A stretch of DNA of 24,033 bases. Source: a virus. The stretch is taken from IMG/VR virus record IMGVR_UViG_3300047490_000097, positions 1-24,033 of that record; one strand, given 5' to 3'. Each line of letters starts with the position of its first letter. Position 1 is the stretch's first letter. A program made the translations under genes and the position numbers. The notes under the pieces were generated by a model that had not been told where the DNA came from, searched no databases, and saw only the letters and a list, made by a program, of their open reading frames with translations. Shown here in pieces: positions 16,635-23,101 of this stretch.

Positions 16635-16652
16635 ATTTTTTAAAAGGGTTGT

Positions 16653-16681
16653 GGGTGGAGGAGATTAGAACTCCCCCACCC
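16653..16681 (-). terminator. GC-rich hairpin after decoration gene (partial terminator)
   Basis: The minus-strand RNA can form an 11-bp stem with one G-U pair (GGGTGGGGGAG with CTCCTCCACCC) and a 7-nt loop. Only four T follow, after a gap, so it may act as a weak terminator or as an RNA-stability element between the decoration gene and the 85-aa gene. Confidence 0.6.
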
Positions 16682-16688
16682 AAGTTGA

Positions 16689-17303
16689 TTAGAAGTAGAT
16701 ACCAACAACGTAGGCGTTCACATAAAGTGCGCCAACGCGACCTGCTGTATCAGCACCAGAAGCAACGTCAGCACCAGCGTTTGCATAGGTGAACGTGGTT
16801 GCGTCAACAACAGTGACTTCAGCTTGAACATCGTTGAACGAGCTATCAGTCATGCTTGCGATGGTGATAACATCACCAGTAGCAAAACCATGAGCGGCAG
16901 CAGTAACGATCGTTGCAACTCCAGCAGTGCGGGAGCGGGTAGCCGTAGCTTGACCAGCACCAACAGTGGATTTGAGCAAGCGAAGTTTACGTGAACCAGT
17001 GATAACAAAAGGATTGGCGGCAATCGCAAGAGGATTGTAGCGGCCTTGGTTATCAAGGGCATCAGTAAGAGTCAACGAGCTAGTGATGTTTTCTCCAGTC
17101 GTGCCAGTGTCAACAACTACAACTGGATCAGTTGCGGTCGTACCGCGAGCATAGGCTGTTTCGAGAACGATGCTAGTTGGAAAGAACTTAGTATCTTCGT
17201 CGTTAAGGACGAGGAGTTCAGCGTCTCCAGAAGCGAGTAGATTTACAGGGATCGGGCCAAACAGGTTAACGCGATCGTAAGCGAGTGGTCGTGAATTAGA
17301 CAT
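16689..17303 (-). CDS. Putative capsid decoration protein with inserted Ig-like module (204 aa)
   Basis: The protein directly follows the major capsid gene. Residues 1-115 and the last 15 residues (ALYVNAYVVGIYF) are beta-rich and look like one domain (FPTSIVLETAYARGTTATDP, SRKLRLLKSTVG). Between them, residues 122-190 form a self-contained module: RTAGVATIVTAAAHGFATGD, VITIASM, ATTFTYANAG. The pattern G-V-A-T-(I/V)-x-T-x-A-x-H-G-x-x-x-G-D-x-(V/I)-T-I ... T-x-F-T-Y is a common small beta-sandwich of phage surface proteins. Position, Ala/Thr/Val-rich composition and stable-looking fold suggest a decoration protein on the capsid surface. The leader is A-rich and SD-less (AAATAAAAAATATG). The name decoration protein is inference. 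Confidence 0.65.
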   Translation of the reverse strand: MSNSRPLAYDRVNLFGPIPVNLLASGDAELLVLNDEDTKFFPTSIVLETAYARGTTATDPVVVVDTGTTGENITSSLTLTDALDNQGRYNPLAIAANPFVITGSRKLRLLKSTVGAGQATATRSRTAGVATIVTAAAHGFATGDVITIASMTDSSFNDVQAEVTVVDATTFTYANAGADVASGADTAGRVGALYVNAYVVGIYF

Positions 17304-17322
17304 ATTTTTTATTTAAGGTTAT

Positions 17323-17346
17323 GGGGAGAGGCTTTCGCCCCTCCCC
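17323..17346 (-). terminator. GC-rich GAAA-tetraloop hairpin after major capsid gene
   Basis: On the minus strand a 10-bp stem (GGGGAGGGGC with GCCTCTCCCC, one G-U pair) closes a GAAA tetraloop, 8 nt after the capsid stop codon. No U-tract follows; the next bases are ATAACCTTAAAT. It may be an mRNA-stabilising or processing element, or a weak terminator that lets some transcription into the decoration gene. Confidence 0.65.
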
Positions 17347-17354
17347 TGTTTAAC

Positions 17355-18764
17355 TTAGGATGGCACAACGATGTCACCCACACCAGCACAGCTATAGCAG
17401 TCCGTGAGGTCTTGAGGAACGATGTACTCATTCAATGGGCAGCAGCTACCATAGAGGTTTTTGCTCTTAGGCAGACGATGCAAGAACGAGTGCATGATCG
17501 TTGGGTCTTTAACTTGAGCGGCGAGACGGAACTGGGCTTGATAGAAGCCCGATTTGCGCCAGCGGTTGCATTCCCAATCTGGGTTCTTCCATTCCCAATC
17601 ACCAGCGTAGTTCTGGGTCATTTGTTGGGCTTGGCCGTAACCAGTCGAGGATGGCATGGTCCATTTGACCATCGCTTTGTTCACCATAGCAACCGAGATA
17701 CCGAAGTCGGCATTGCGGTAAGCTTTGTTAGGAATGTAAGCGCATCCGTTTTCGAGGACAGTTTTGATGTAGCGTGGAACGCGAACGAGACGTGCCCATG
17801 TAGCAGGATCAGCTTCGTTGAACGGAGCGAGCGATGCGTTGAAGGCAGTGTCAGCGTTGAAGCGAGCGGCGTTGATGTCGTAACCGAAGGCGTAGTCGCC
17901 GATGATACGATTGATGCCGAGCTTCAGACGGGTAAGACGCTCATCGAAGTCCGTGTTAGCATCCCAGTAGCCATTGTTGCGCTTGGCTTGGAAGTAAAGC
18001 GCACGGCCAACTTGAGGATCAGGGATAACGATGTCGAGCAATGGCTGACCAGTCGCATCTTGGAGATCAAGACGGAAAGCGTCATCTTCGTCTTGGAGGT
18101 CAACGAGAGCATCGTCGAGCATATCAAGCGAAAGATAAGCGATTTTGTTGAGGTCAGCAGGAGCGATCTTAACGCGAAGGGCGCAGAGATCATAACCAGC
18201 TTCGTTGTTGAGCGAATGCTCTGGAACGAACCAAGATTGGTCGTCAACCAGTCCGCAATACGTGCCGTCATCAGTCGTGATGCCGAGCCACTTGTGACCA
18301 GAACCACCAATGTAGTTGGAACGAAGGAACTCTTCGTGGACGTTCTTGGTGATACGAGCGTTGGACTCTTCAAACTGGAGGATTTCTTCAGCAGGGAAGA
18401 GGCGGTAGAGCAAGCTCTCAACGCAAATCCAGTCAGTGGTCATCTCCTTACGGAGCAATTCAAAAGTGTAGGATTCCGTGCCGGGGCGTTGGATCACTTC
18501 TGGTTTGCTATCGCAAGAATCAGTCTCGCAGTAGGTGTCGGTGATGGTGCGGAAAGGGCTGCAAGGATCGTGGAATCCACGGCCAAAGCGGAACGCTTTC
18601 TGTTCGGTTGTGTGGTTAAGAGGCCATGCTTGCTCCTCGAAACGCGTGAAATATGCGGAGTTTGTGACGAGCTTTTTCACATAGAGGTCGTTGAAATACT
18701 CGCGGCCCTCGCGGAAGAAACTGTCAATCTCTGCACAGCTATTGAAGTATAGTTGTTCTGACAT
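17355..18764 (-). CDS. Major capsid protein (469 aa)
   Basis: The gene lies between scaffold and decoration genes, has its own promoter and leader, and encodes a 469-aa protein of the size expected for an HK97-fold capsid subunit. Visible features are the helical N-terminus (EIDSFFREGREYFNDLYVKK), a Phe/Arg-rich segment AFRFGRGFHDPCSPF, a long helix-like stretch about residues 110-150 (LLYRLFPAEEILQFEESNAR), and an acidic stretch DLQDEDDAFRLDLQDA. It contains 13 Cys, unusual for a cytoplasmically assembled shell. Codon use is more G/C-rich than in the spike genes, as expected for a highly expressed gene. The ATG follows an A-rich leader with repeated CTAAAC units and seven A. The call rests on position, length and context; the fold itself cannot be proven from sequence reading. 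Confidence 0.8.
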   Translation of the reverse strand: MSEQLYFNSCAEIDSFFREGREYFNDLYVKKLVTNSAYFTRFEEQAWPLNHTTEQKAFRFGRGFHDPCSPFRTITDTYCETDSCDSKPEVIQRPGTESYTFELLRKEMTTDWICVESLLYRLFPAEEILQFEESNARITKNVHEEFLRSNYIGGSGHKWLGITTDDGTYCGLVDDQSWFVPEHSLNNEAGYDLCALRVKIAPADLNKIAYLSLDMLDDALVDLQDEDDAFRLDLQDATGQPLLDIVIPDPQVGRALYFQAKRNNGYWDANTDFDERLTRLKLGINRIIGDYAFGYDINAARFNADTAFNASLAPFNEADPATWARLVRVPRYIKTVLENGCAYIPNKAYRNADFGISVAMVNKAMVKWTMPSSTGYGQAQQMTQNYAGDWEWKNPDWECNRWRKSGFYQAQFRLAAQVKDPTIMHSFLHRLPKSKNLYGSCCPLNEYIVPQDLTDCYSCAGVGDIVVPS

Positions 18765-18948
18765 TTTTTTGTTTAGTTTAGGTTTAGTTTACGCACTCCA
18801 TGACAAATCCGAAGATAGCCAAAGCGAGTGCTTTGTTTTTCTTCGGCTGGAGTCTACCCCGAAAACCTTCTTATGAAGGCTGTCCAGAAACAGCTTTTCA
18901 TACGAGTGCTGTTACTCGTCAGCCAGAGTGCGGCTGAATCCCTAATGA

Positions 18949-18964
18949 TTATCGTAAACGATAA
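18949..18964. repeat. Dispersed palindrome copy 5 (capsid gene leader)
   Basis: TTATCGTAAACGATAA, perfect dyad with 7-bp arms around AA. Unlike the other junction copies it lies 184 nt upstream of the ATG, about 17-32 nt downstream of the predicted transcription start of the capsid promoter, a position suited to an operator. Confidence 0.85.
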
Positions 18965-18987
18965 AGTTCGGATTTCTCTTATGCGCA

Positions 18988-19016
18988 AATATGCAAACGC
19001 TATTTTATACTGTCAA
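18988..19016 (-). promoter_or_regulatory. Sigma70-type promoter for the major capsid gene
   Basis: On the minus strand a perfect TTGACA (19011-19016) is followed after exactly 17 nt by CATATT (18988-18993, 4 of 6 matches to TATAAT). It lies directly after the scaffold terminator and upstream of the capsid leader, so it should restart transcription for the capsid block. Predicted start near 18981. Confidence 0.7.
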
Positions 19017-19026
19017 GTTGTTTTTT

Positions 19027-19063
19027 AAAAAAAGTTGGGGGAGGCAGTCCATCTACCTCCCCC
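19027..19063 (-). terminator. Rho-independent terminator after scaffold gene
   Basis: The minus-strand RNA has a perfect 8-bp G/C stem (GGGGGAGG with CCTCCCCC, 11-nt loop), followed by AAC and seven T. It begins 27 nt after the scaffold stop and separates the portal/scaffold unit from the capsid promoter. Confidence 0.9.
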
Positions 19064-19090
19064 ATGCTATCCAGAATCAAGAATTATGGG

Positions 19091-20374
19091 CTATGCCGTA
19101 ACTCGATTTTGCGGTGAGAACCTTGCGATCTTTGCCGCCAGTCCCTCAGATACACTCATCCTTGACTTCTGGGAATCCGATGCATTCGATGATGAATTTA
19201 CTTTAGATGATCCTTTTAACGCATTAATGTAATCATTCTTTTCTTTCAGCATTTCTTGCAAAGCTTTGATGTAAGCTTGTTGCTTCTTATACGCCTTACC
19301 TTGATTGATAAGACGATTCATATCATCCACGCTTGCTACTTCTTCACTTTGCTGAGTCGCGGCGAGTGCGATAGCTTCGTCTTTAGTAGTATCGTATTTG
19401 ATTCCCTTGTCGTTCATGTAGGAATAAACTTCATCTGGAATGAATACTTCCTTCTTGATGATGCTTTCCTGTTCTTGGAATGAGTTCCTCCATTGTTTCA
19501 AGAAGTTAGAACGCGCTTCTTGTTCTTTCTGTTTTGCTGTCCTTGTGATTTCTTCCTTGGTTTTCTGATAGTCAGACAATGCGATATTGTGGCGCTCGGT
19601 TGCTTTCTCAAAGTTTTTGATAGCATCAATGAACTTTGCTTTGTCGTAGTCATCCAAAGAGTTTGTTACTTCACGCAATGCTTCGCGGCGTTCTTGAATC
19701 GCGGCCAACCTTTGCTCATCTGATGTAGCAGAAAATACAGCTTGATTTGCAAGCACCGCACGATTGAACATAGCAGAGATGTTAGCATCTCCTTCATTAT
19801 CAATGATGGATTTAGCATCAAGATAATGTTCCTTCATTGGCTCAACGTATGTTTTCTGAAAGTCCGGGTTACTTGAAAGATCATGGAAATCCAACTTGTT
19901 ACGAAGCTCTTGAATCTGCTGAGTATACTGAGACTCAAGTTGAGCTTTCTGCTCGTTCGCTTCATTGAGTTGTTTCTGGTAATGGTTAGCTTCAGCCGTT
20001 GATTTGCTGTCTTCTACCAATCGCTCCAACTCTTGAATCTTACTTTCAAACTTTGGAATCTCGTTTTTCTTTACGTTCTCCAACTCTTCTTTGAGCTTGC
20101 GGTTCTCTTCAATCTGACGCTCAACGAATCCTTTCTTCTTTCCTGTGCGGTCCGAAGTGATCTCAGATTCAGTTACTCCAGTTGTTTCTTCTGGAGGTTC
20201 TTCCTCATTGTATTTAGGAATGCCAAGGTTAGGATCGCCAACATTAGTAGCACTTGGCTTACCTTCGTCAGTTTGTTGCTGACTGAACTTTTTCAAGAAG
20301 TCAGATGTATTTCCCTTAATAGGAACTTGTGGTTTAGATTTTAGGTCGCTGATGATTTCTTCAGTTGTTGCCAT
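19091..20374 (-). CDS. Capsid scaffolding protein (427 aa)
   Basis: A highly charged, low-aromatic protein with a single Trp. Residues 35-75 are disordered and acidic (EEEPPEETTGVTESEITSD). From about 85 to 160 there is a long coiled coil (FVERQIEENRKLKEELENVK, then IQELERLVEDSKS and QQIQELRNKL). Helical segments continue to about 390, and the C-terminus is Ser-rich then basic (GLAAKIARFSPQNRVTA), the usual capsid-binding end of scaffolds. It sits between portal and capsid genes, the standard place. It starts behind CATAATATG with no Shine-Dalgarno, 1 nt after the 80-aa gene, and is followed by a strong terminator. No protease domain is visible. Confidence 0.8.
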   Translation of the reverse strand: MATTEEIISDLKSKPQVPIKGNTSDFLKKFSQQQTDEGKPSATNVGDPNLGIPKYNEEEPPEETTGVTESEITSDRTGKKKGFVERQIEENRKLKEELENVKKNEIPKFESKIQELERLVEDSKSTAEANHYQKQLNEANEQKAQLESQYTQQIQELRNKLDFHDLSSNPDFQKTYVEPMKEHYLDAKSIIDNEGDANISAMFNRAVLANQAVFSATSDEQRLAAIQERREALREVTNSLDDYDKAKFIDAIKNFEKATERHNIALSDYQKTKEEITRTAKQKEQEARSNFLKQWRNSFQEQESIIKKEVFIPDEVYSYMNDKGIKYDTTKDEAIALAATQQSEEVASVDDMNRLINQGKAYKKQQAYIKALQEMLKEKNDYINALKGSSKVNSSSNASDSQKSRMSVSEGLAAKIARFSPQNRVTA

Positions 20375-20375
20375 A

Positions 20376-20618
20376 TTATGATTCGTTTAGGTCTGGATCG
20401 ATGTTTGATTCTGGTTGTTGTGTTTTGGAGGAAGATTTGATTTTCTTAAATTCACCATCTGCATTTTCGCCAATGAAGTGAATATGGCTTAGTGCATTGC
20501 GTAGTGTGTCGATTCCAGAACTTGGAGCAGATACCATAAGCAAGTGAGCTTGTAGCCTGTCCCAGTCATCATGCTTCACAATGGAAGCGCATAGTTGTTT
20601 TATTTTATCTGTATTCAT
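20376..20618 (-). CDS. Small hypothetical protein between portal and scaffold (80 aa)
   Basis: The 80-aa product begins MNTDKIKQLCASIVKHDDWD and ends QQPESNIDPDLNES. The first 55 residues look helical (RLQAHLLMVSAPSSGIDTLR), and the last 25 are polar and disordered. The ATG overlaps the portal stop (CAATGA), so it is translationally coupled to the portal gene, and the scaffold follows at once. No family is recognised. Small proteins at this position in podoviruses are usually virion or assembly proteins; that role is inference. Confidence 0.65.
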   Translation of the reverse strand: MNTDKIKQLCASIVKHDDWDRLQAHLLMVSAPSSGIDTLRNALSHIHFIGENADGEFKKIKSSSKTQQPESNIDPDLNES

Positions 20619-23101
20619 TGTTGCATTGGTGTGATTTTATTCTCCATCTCAACTTCTTCAGTTCCTTCTGGAGTCTCTACCTCTTCGGTTTCCATCTCCT
20701 CTGGTTCTTCGGTCTCTTCTTCTTCCATCTCTACCTTTTCTTCCATTGGCATCTCTGCTGCCATCTTGCCTTTGGCTTTTTGAATCTCAGTACGTGCCTT
20801 TGCCTTTTGCAGTGCAAGTTGGGTAATACCCTGTTCCTTGCGTTGCTCTGTGCGTTGTGCGTGACTGACTGCCGCCTTGCCAATTGAGATATCGGCAAGT
20901 TTCTGCTTGGTATCAATTTCGATGCCAGATTTAGCAGCGAGGTATTGAAGTTTAAGTTCTTCTTCGGAGGATTGTTTGCCTTGCTGACTTTGTGCGAGTT
21001 CTTGGTAAACAGCACCGATTTCGTCTGCGGCTTTTTGAGCTTGCTGCATTCCACCCATAAACTGCTTGAGGAAGTCTTTCTTCGATGGGTCTTTTGCAAT
21101 GAACTCAACGTGCGCCATGATGTGGCCGCCTTTGAATTGAATGGAACGAACAACCAATCCGAGTTCATCAATATCTGGTTGACCAGCTTGAATAGATTGC
21201 ATACTCGACTGAATCTGCATCATCATATCCTGCAAATGAGCAGTTGCGTGTTCGATATGCGGATCAGTTGGTAATACTGGGAAGTTTGCTGGGTTGACGA
21301 ATGCATCAGTCATTCCAGCATTTTCAAATCCGATTACACGTTTGGCTTCGCTTACTTTTGGTGACTTAGTGTTGCGATAGCGAACTACGTTATCCCTGCC
21401 GGCAAGTGCCGCGATTGCGTCTTTAACTGCGTTCTCTTGGCCTTCGTTTGCTGGAGTGATTGCTGTGATCTGCAATAACTTCTCTGCTGTGATAAGTTTG
21501 AACGATGGACTACCTGCTCCGTTGATAAGGTTAGAACGGATCGAAGTTACATTCTTCATCGATGCCGCTTCTTTCGGAGTTCCGAGTTCTTCTAACTTAG
21601 AGTAAAACTTTTTAACATACTCATACCCATCGTCGTTAGATGTTGACGATACGAACCTGCGATATAATTCTCGGAAGTATAATGTTTCGCACTCATTAAA
21701 GCGACGAATTTGAGTTCCAGAAAGTTTTGCGCTTTCAGCGGCATTCAATTCTGCTTCACCTTTTGTGCGCTGCTTTCCTCCAGATGTTGGTGCGTCAATT
21801 CGGTATTGTCCAAGTCCGCGATAAAGATCGCTCATGAAGTACTGCATGAATCCAAGTCCCTCTGAAACTGGCAACTGGAATCGATTCTGAGTAAACTTTG
21901 CGCCATCTGGCATTACGCTAATTGGCAACCACTCCATTTGCTTTAGCATCTTGGTTGCGTCTGGACCTTGACCCTCAATGAGTAGCATGGAGTTGAGACG
22001 TACTGCGTCAACCAGTCCGTTCATCGTAAAGTCATACTGACGGCAAGCGACGAATGCTTCTTCAGCTTGGCTCTTGATATCATGGAACAATCCAGACCCT
22101 ACTGAATCAGTCAACATATACATCATCTCTGACCAATCTTTAAACTGGCCTACTTTTAGCATCATAAATCCATGATTCTCGCGCACTGTCATGTCATCGA
22201 TCTTTTCTGATCCTTTGACATATTTGTTAAGATACTGGCTGATTGGTGTGTAATCTTGAAGAATAATGCATTTGCTAATGCTTCCATCGAACTCGCGCCA
22301 ATACACTTCATACAGGTCGATCTTCTCGTTTACAGAAAGTGACCAGTTAAATCCAGCTTCACTAATTGTTCGGAAGAAATCCTCACGTGTTTTGTTGTGC
22401 TGGTTAAATGCTTTGTGAAATCGAATAGCGTCAATCGTTGCGTCCACGTTCCATCCCATATCTTCAGCAGCACTGCGATTCTCAATCTTTTTATACAACT
22501 GATATGGTGTAAGTCTTACTCTTCGGGCAAACTCCTCAAGGTTAGAAAAGTCGATGCGGATGTCGTCTGGGAAAAGCAGGTCGGAAAGGAACACGTGTTC
22601 TGGAATCCACCCAACATTTGACGGCCACATACCAATCCCTTTTCCGTAAAGAAGCATCTCTTCAAGGTCTTGTTCTGTATTATACAGGTATCCGGGCCAC
22701 TCGCGGATCGCATGATCGAAGGCAATTGAAATGTTTTCAGAGTTAACTAAGCGTTCTTTTTCGTTTCCAAATTTGGTTGTTATGGAACAGCAAGCTTGCC
22801 GCTCCGTAATCACATCGTAATAACTTGATTTCTGATTATCCACGATGAATGCCATTTGACCCCAGTTAACGTCTGATTGCCAAGGTAGCTTCTTTTCGGC
22901 AAGCCTGCTGTATCCAGTAGGGGGAAAGCGTTTGTATGATTTGTAAATTCGGATGCGTTTATTCTCGCGGCCTACGTTTGCAAGTTTAAGATTGTTTGCG
23001 ATATTCCAAGCATGATTTGCGCTTGCAATGCGTGTTTCTGGAGGCTCGCCATCTTGTCCTAATGTGCGAAGTGTGAAGTTTTCGTTTCCAATTGAGATCA
23101 T
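20615..23101 (-). CDS. Portal protein (head-tail connector), 828 aa
   Basis: The length fits large podovirus portals. Typical segments are the N-terminal helical part with KKLPWQSDVNWGQMAFIVDN, a region with EQDLEEMLLYGKGIGMWPSN, a wing-like part (IDLYEVYWREFDGS), and the stem/clip region with GGKQRTKGEAELNAAESAKL followed by FNECETLYFRELYRRFVSS, common in podovirus portals. A long helical barrel region follows (about 640-780), and the last 50 residues are extremely acidic (MEEKVEMEEEETEEPEEMET). The portal forms the dodecameric ring through which DNA is packaged. The ATG at 23101 stands 6 nt after a palindrome copy and lacks a Shine-Dalgarno; the gene starts the portal/scaffold unit. Confidence 0.85.
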   Translation of the reverse strand: MISIGNENFTLRTLGQDGEPPETRIASANHAWNIANNLKLANVGRENKRIRIYKSYKRFPPTGYSRLAEKKLPWQSDVNWGQMAFIVDNQKSSYYDVITERQACCSITTKFGNEKERLVNSENISIAFDHAIREWPGYLYNTEQDLEEMLLYGKGIGMWPSNVGWIPEHVFLSDLLFPDDIRIDFSNLEEFARRVRLTPYQLYKKIENRSAAEDMGWNVDATIDAIRFHKAFNQHNKTREDFFRTISEAGFNWSLSVNEKIDLYEVYWREFDGSISKCIILQDYTPISQYLNKYVKGSEKIDDMTVRENHGFMMLKVGQFKDWSEMMYMLTDSVGSGLFHDIKSQAEEAFVACRQYDFTMNGLVDAVRLNSMLLIEGQGPDATKMLKQMEWLPISVMPDGAKFTQNRFQLPVSEGLGFMQYFMSDLYRGLGQYRIDAPTSGGKQRTKGEAELNAAESAKLSGTQIRRFNECETLYFRELYRRFVSSTSNDDGYEYVKKFYSKLEELGTPKEAASMKNVTSIRSNLINGAGSPSFKLITAEKLLQITAITPANEGQENAVKDAIAALAGRDNVVRYRNTKSPKVSEAKRVIGFENAGMTDAFVNPANFPVLPTDPHIEHATAHLQDMMMQIQSSMQSIQAGQPDIDELGLVVRSIQFKGGHIMAHVEFIAKDPSKKDFLKQFMGGMQQAQKAADEIGAVYQELAQSQQGKQSSEEELKLQYLAAKSGIEIDTKQKLADISIGKAAVSHAQRTEQRKEQGITQLALQKAKARTEIQKAKGKMAAEMPMEEKVEMEEEETEEPEEMETEEVETPEGTEEVEMENKITPMQQ

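Follow-up and report, generated by a model that had tools for sequence, protein, structure and literature searches.

A conserved structured leader RNA, possibly a two-state switch, upstream of the presumed capsid gene in a group of uncultured phages

The window, by which we mean the whole 24,033-nt stretch of DNA that was analysed, is a 24-kb virus record (IMG/VR IMGVR_UViG_3300047490_000097). On its minus strand, a gap of 326 nt separates the presumed capsid gene from the genes upstream and holds every element of the leader described here. The flanking genes are as follows.

20615–23101, minus strand: portal-sized gene, from the open reading frames of the window; a small gene lies between it and the scaffold-like gene
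19091–20374, minus strand: scaffold-like gene, from the open reading frames of the window, 5′ of the leader
17355–18764, minus strand: presumed major capsid gene, 469 amino acids, placed by gene order only

That the 469-residue product is the capsid protein is presumed from gene order alone. The protein had no match in Pfam, PHROG or the PDB, and AlphaFold2 models of it reached pLDDT values of 27 and 31, giving no support for a fold. In one relative, the neighbouring gene in divergent orientation encodes a terminase large subunit (phrog_2, E 2e-7). No protein of cultured phages matched the presumed capsid or portal, and capsid-alignment scans of GTDB genomes for a host returned no relative. 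The presumed capsid is 79–100% conserved among the best 80 of 151–205 relatives per scan, yet has no family match. These water phages thus appear to form a deeply divergent group without a cultured member in the collections searched.

Related loci were gathered from IMG/VR by capsid-based scans, each taking the best 80 of 151–205 relatives in overlapping sets, and by one DNA-pattern scan, with capsid identities of about 79–100%. Six capsid-scan loci had too little upstream DNA to count. Within this sampling, the leader RNA was present in all 87 distinct capsid-start stretches, that is, in every relative found with a readable leader. By pattern, it was recognised in 365 of the 368 capsid-scan loci whose start was readable and whose upstream DNA reached 230 nt or more, or 86 of the 87 distinct stretches; the three misses belong to one record, L203, in which a covariance model finds the RNA. 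The set of 83 leaders used below has one row per distinct core, with loci of too little flank dropped and L203 missed by the pattern. The covariance model R1, built from 62 leaders, gave one match per source in 43 of 48 sources, at E 1.2e-27 or better, many of these matches being training rows. The five sources without a match comprised two other parts of record G002 and three unrelated sequences, into which the DNA pattern had fallen. Beyond the training set, R1 found the RNA in 26 of 26 further loci searched (L203–L304), always with E 1e-17 or better; these include a few identical or nearly identical leaders. The leader was not found in cultured phages; a DNA search with two leaders returned nothing for one and, for the other, only 24 bp matched (E 0.7), within scaffolding genes of E. 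coli and Salmonella phages, a match that we took as chance. In record G001 (58,120 bases), the leader model matches two stretches, L006 and L132, one of them near the record start, which suggests a terminally repeated, near-complete genome although the record is classed as linear.

Transcription signals occupy the upstream part of the gap.

19036–19064, minus strand: intrinsic terminator predicted to close the scaffold/portal transcript, a 12-bp stem with a T-run
19011–19016, minus strand: −35 box TTGACA, invariant in 83 of 83 distinct leaders
18988–18993, minus strand: −10 box CATATT after a 17-nt spacer, read from the sequence

The stem at 19064–19036 is the strongest terminator-like site of the window, and of the 82 leaders with enough upstream DNA, 72 have a terminator-like hairpin with a T-run no more than 75 nt ahead of TTGACA. 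The promoter match is by itself ordinary, with 31 such sites in the window against 33.1 expected, and the −10 boxes of the 83 leaders are TATNTT-like at 15–18 nt spacing, many of them weak. TTGACA itself sits 60–71 nt 5′ of the sequence TTAG in all 83 distinct leaders. An initial annotation of this DNA had described a strong terminator followed by TTGACA-N17-CATATT and had proposed that the capsid gene has its own promoter; the arrangement is found as described, and the invariant −35 box and recurrent upstream hairpin support the proposal. The transcript would start near 18981, giving a leader of about 217 nt, in line with the approximately 215 nt originally estimated.

The window leader folds far better than shuffled sequences (z −5.34, 0 of 200). 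Across relatives, the conserved unit consists of the TTGACA promoter, a structured RNA of about 160 nt, a G-poor linker and the ATG. The following helices were defined, with pairing percentages taken over alignment cells.

18966–18970, minus strand: 5′ arm of helix P0, CCGAA, pairing with TTAGG (18945–18941) around an inner G·A mismatch; pair variation
18941–18945, minus strand: 3′ arm of P0, TTAGG; pair variation
18920–18936, minus strand: hairpin P1, CAGCC-GCACTCT-GGCTG; 99.3% paired, two-sided changes in 5 of 5 pairs
18902–18919, minus strand: hairpin P2, ACGAG-TAACAGCA-CTCGT; 98.7% paired, two-sided changes in 2 of 5 pairs
18883–18887, minus strand: 5′ arm of P3, CTGGA; 100% paired, a two-sided T-A/C-G change in 25 of 62 leaders
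18847–18851, minus strand: 3′ arm of P3, TCCAG; pairing in alignment A3
18866–18879, minus strand: hairpin P4, CCTTC-ATAA-GAAGG; 99.4% paired, two-sided changes in 4 of 5 pairs
18820–18835, minus strand: hairpin P5, CAAAGC-ACTC-GCTTTG; 99.0% paired, one pair changed on both sides and the others invariant

Alignment A3, made with MAFFT from 62 distinct leaders, covers P1, P2, P3, P4, P5 and the two pseudoknots PK1 and PK2 described below. In it, 90.2% of cells are paired and 20 of 36 pairs are changed on both sides, with a covariation score of 0.276 against 0.108 when letters were dealt anew (0 of 500 as good). When partners were slid by 1–3 columns as a control, pairing dropped to 26–42% (at most 41.6%). 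A measure of further pair types was not above shuffles, either in A3 (274 of 500) or in a second alignment fitted to the model (404 of 500). A3 contains one-base shifts in PK2 of one type and in P1 of short variants, and the PK2 columns are only 70.5% paired in it because MAFFT shifts that type by a base; the P1–P6 counts of the second alignment lean towards the model because it was fitted to it. P4 is missing from 29 of the 62 leaders. The outermost pair of P0 is C-G in 58 and A-T in 25 of the 83 leaders and broken in none, and only this short P0 is supported, since a longer outer helix GAAATCC/GGGATTC was matched by 426 of 500 shuffles. Two other candidates were set aside by eye: a hammerhead-like CTGACGA in P2 of the window reads CTGGCGA in relatives in A3, and a pairing of the P1 loop with GTGC near the ATG is good in the window and not kept in relatives. 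Covariation among relatives, which the initial annotation had named as one check of its leader, was strong over P1–P5 and both pseudoknots, and we consider a conserved RNA structure of the capsid leader near-certain.

The first of the pseudoknots, PK1, is H-type and joins the P2 loop to a strand that follows an A-rich linker.

18908–18913, minus strand: 5′ strand of PK1, AACAGC, in the P2 loop; covariation
18889–18894, minus strand: 3′ strand of PK1, GCTGTT; covariation

All 62 leaders form the three core pairs (columns 36–38), which show 23, 30 and 8 two-sided changes, and distant leaders add matching pairs such as ACCG/CGGT and CCA/TGG. In a strand test with 36 strand combinations, own partners beat partners dealt anew (0 of 500); such tests score the best possible stem within fixed stretches. 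They misparse P1/P2 of L064, and in some leaders their top-scoring PK1 stem is out of register; the counts in register given above come from A3. The pairing of AACAGC with GCTGTT had been noticed at the outset and is real. It had also been cast as one side of a switch, opposed by a hairpin of GCTGT (18894–18890) with ACAGC (18883–18879), and read as a possible attenuator. Both pairings are present in the window, but PK1 is kept in every leader, whereas the rival hairpin is a peculiarity of a few leaders and no better than chance across 54 combinations (7.69 against 7.51 ± 0.24, 119 of 500 shuffles as good). An attenuator of the terminator type is in any case unlikely, since on the minus strand of the window no T-run hairpin separates the RNA from the ATG, and we regard one that sets PK1 against this hairpin as hardly credible.

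A different pair of mutually exclusive folds is conserved. Strand S, which follows P3, pairs either with a strand in the P3 loop, forming PK2, or, exclusively, with a strand after P5, forming hairpin P6.

18859–18863, minus strand: 5′ strand of PK2, TTCGG; 26 strand combinations, 0 of 500 shuffles as good
18842–18846, minus strand: strand S, CCGAA, common to PK2 and P6; eight S sequences in relatives
18809–18815, minus strand: 3′ strand of P6, TCTTCGG, partner of CCGAAGA (18846–18840); 41 combinations, 0 of 500

The eight S sequences are CCGAAGA, CAGAGGA, CTCGAAA, CAGAGAA, CCTCAGA, TAGGAAA, CAGGGAC and CTCAAAC, and every one of them is matched by a strand on either side. Leader L211, for example, offers TCCTA/TAGGA for PK2 and TAGGAAA/TTTCCTA for P6, and L209 offers GAGG/CCTC and CTCAGA/TCTGGG. 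The weakest case is L295: its PK2 is reduced to GAG/CTC in register, and P6 brings no gain in estimated energy. The gain from P6 is −0.3 kcal/mol in L211, and some leaders (L067, L147, L038) have mismatches in P6. In the model-fitted alignment, P6 shows two-sided changes in three of four columns. Mean energies of the two states are comparable, at −5.4 kcal/mol for P6 and −6.6 kcal/mol for the PK2 duplex, as rough values that exclude the loop cost of the pseudoknot; the S class of the window gives −11.4 and −6.7 kcal/mol, respectively. The notion of two exclusive folds thus fails for PK1 and the GCTGT/ACAGC hairpin and stands for PK2 and P6, so that the label 'switch-like' was right for another reason. 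Regulated switching between PK2 and P6 is plausible.

A tree of the capsid gene covered 78 of the 83 leaders, those for which 900 or more bases of the gene were available. On it, the S class has undergone a minimum of 28 changes and the PK1 triplet a minimum of 25. This suggests that whole leader blocks are frequently exchanged; allowing for such exchange, the independent cases number closer to the eight S classes plus six PK1 classes than to the 83 leaders. Halves of different leader types are combined within one leader in L067, L036 and others.

Downstream of the structured RNA, the message runs into a tract of unusual composition.

18765–18790, minus strand: G-poor linker ahead of the start codon, without a Shine-Dalgarno sequence; base composition

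G makes up 1.5% of the last 35 nt before the start over the 83 leaders, whereas the figure for 20 other window genes is 14.3%, and by eye no Shine-Dalgarno sequence was seen on any of the window's listed genes. Such a nearly G-free linker is as expected of an unstructured landing tract for ribosomes; in prediction it is not clearly open, with a mean unpaired value of 0.67 for the linker and 0.53 for the start codon. A leader peptide was considered and rejected, since an ATG stands at the candidate place in only 45 of 83 leaders. In all 83 leaders the next gene is a capsid-like open reading frame, 58–86 nt after P5. The conserved structured RNA is therefore located in cis, as the initial annotation had suggested, and it likely acts in cis on the capsid message. 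A phage RNA acting in trans, such as a packaging RNA or a small RNA that happens to precede the capsid gene, would suit the compact, ornate fold and its single copy per source (no second copy was seen in the covariance-model search of 48 sources). The RNA nonetheless stands directly upstream of the capsid reading frame at a narrow spacing in 83 of 83 leaders, and no terminator-like site was found on the minus strand of the window between it and the ATG, which makes a trans role improbable. Lying directly behind the promoter of a long row of genes on the same strand, the RNA might instead be a promoter-proximal, put-like antitermination element for the structural operon; no strong terminator-like site lies downstream on the minus strand, so antitermination has no evident need to meet, and we consider it very improbable.

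The window gave no hit at the gathering threshold in Rfam 15, and six leaders searched at E up to 1 or 10 gave only scores far below gathering. Among the open-access PMC papers listed in literature searches, none describes such a leader in its title or abstract opening. By these searches, the leader RNA belongs to no catalogued family and appears to be a new one. Short leader variants, in which UAG/CUA is combined with AAAAA, presumably resemble the preQ1-I riboswitch; an identity with preQ1-I was rejected for want of an Rfam match. Like riboswitches such as preQ1-I, the leader has an H-type pseudoknot, an A-rich third loop and a strand shared by two exclusive helices, and two exclusive, conserved folds of the kind sought in a riboswitch are found in PK2 and P6 on S. 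Unlike riboswitches, its pseudoknot sequence is freely variable, and it lacks a terminator or Shine-Dalgarno platform, so that no recognised expression platform was seen.

The manA and wcaG motifs of cyanophages are likewise leader RNAs of phages with a defined structure, discovered through comparative genomics. They lie upstream of metabolic genes (PMC2864571), whereas here the gene is a presumed capsid gene and there is no Rfam match; the text of that paper does not contain the word 'capsid'. A likeness in layout is seen in the gene 32 operator of T4 and RB69, in which a 5′ pseudoknot precedes less structured A-rich repeats to the start (PMC535899), as the pseudoknots here precede an A-rich, G-poor tract. 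That operator is a single pseudoknot of about 28 nt on a gene for a single-stranded DNA-binding protein with a Shine-Dalgarno sequence, whereas the leader here spans about 160 nt with two pseudoknots, a two-partner strand, a presumed capsid gene and no Shine-Dalgarno sequence. By analogy, the capsid, scaffold or another phage protein could bind the pseudoknot, spread over the linker and repress translation, in the manner of gp32 in T4. Capsid genes need dosage control and the layout is the same, but the domain is much larger than that of gene 32 and holds two pseudoknots, and we judge an autogenous operator unlikely.

In E. coli tisB, a 5′ pseudoknot is needed for standby binding of S1 and the 30S subunit, and a distant single-stranded region is thought to load ribosomes (PMC7708055). 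The tisB transcript is a toxin mRNA with a sequestered ribosome-binding site, and the likeness drawn here is one of layout. It provides a precedent for reading the leader as a constitutive 5′ stabiliser or ribosome standby element in which the passage from PK2 to P6 is a mere folding pathway; the pseudoknotted domain would then shield the message, load ribosomes onto the single-stranded linker, or both. A 5′-proximal pseudoknot with a G-poor linker behind it, and the absence of visible Shine-Dalgarno sequences on the window's listed genes, would suit this reading, to which we give even odds, but it leaves unexplained why all eight sequence classes of S have remained complementary to both partners.

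We read the element as a structured leader RNA of a new family, acting in cis on the mRNA of the capsid gene, possibly as a two-state switch, with a probability of roughly 0.62. On this reading from comparative sequence data, the terminator would cut off the upstream genes and the invariant TTGACA promoter would restart transcription, and the first 175 nt or so of the transcript would fold into P0, P1, P2/PK1, P3/P4/PK2 and P5, with a nearly G-free linker leading to a start codon that lacks a Shine-Dalgarno sequence. S could then leave PK2 to form hairpin P6. During transcription PK2 would form first, because the transcript already contains both PK2 strands when the P6 partner, about 25–30 nt after S, has yet to be copied; one partner before S and one after it is what a co-transcriptional switch would need. 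Whether S sits in PK2 or P6 may alter how readily ribosomes reach the linker past the 5′ domain, or how well the 5′ end is protected, and the position of S could thereby set capsid output. A bound protein or metabolite favouring one state would make the leader a regulator; without one, it would be a constitutive, expression-tuning leader.

In a more ambitious form of this proposal, which we hold to be unlikely though worth stating, the double-pseudoknot domain would sense an assembly protein or host metabolite and place S in PK2 or P6 as a feedback switch for shell building, turning capsid translation up or down without Shine-Dalgarno sequences. If so, phages throughout this uncultured group would possess a riboswitch-like control of a capsid gene. 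To our knowledge, structured regulatory RNAs on phage structural genes have rarely been described. The leader offers a ready covariance model and a clear two-state hypothesis in which each strand is named. It could serve to study how capsid dosage is set in tailed phages that lack Shine-Dalgarno sequences and, with near-total sequence freedom under fixed pairing, is a clean case for work on RNA structure.

The apex of P0 carries a feature that recurs beyond the leader.

18949–18964, minus strand: palindrome TTATCGTTTACGATAA at the P0 apex, one of the dispersed TTATCGKNNMCGATAA sites; repeat counts

The palindrome has 7-bp arms, TTATCGT/ACGATAA, around TT and spans about +18 to +33 from the proposed start, close to the +17 to +32 given in the initial annotation, which had called it operator-like. 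With up to three mismatches it has 13 matches at 7 places in the window (482, 6143, 8675, 13153, 16361, 18949 and 23108, some imperfect), against 0.15 expected. TTATCGKNNMCGATAA occurs in 4–17 copies per record in 23 of 23 records, and a reversed-pattern control in none. Several copies in the window lie 5–6 nt before start codons, and in the window and G002 together 8 of 21 perfect sites lie 5–12 nt before the ATG of a reading frame of at least 60 codons. Other copies sit inside long genes (L198 at 12773 and 15876; L199 at 636, 10933 and 18344; L200 at 1560), so the dyad is not confined to start sites. Both half-sites of TTATCGKNNMCGATAA show a K preference, which fits a dimeric DNA-binding protein, and the dispersed dyad is likely a genome-wide operator or stoperator-like site, if a putative one. 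An operator role is thus plausible in general; at this locus, the palindrome caps an RNA helix, being present at the P0 apex in 57 of 78 leaders and replaced in the other 21, a sister group, by a GNRA-type mini-hairpin, GC-GNGA-GC. Mycobacteriophage stoperators, short repressor sites scattered over the phage genome (PMC9283540), share the many dispersed copies of one site; they are asymmetric, whereas the dyad here is symmetric and 16 bp long.

Elsewhere in the window, GC-rich hairpins without a clear T-run were seen by eye at 16635–16690 and 17304–17354, directly 5′ of two further structural genes, and are possibly processing or stabilising hairpins.
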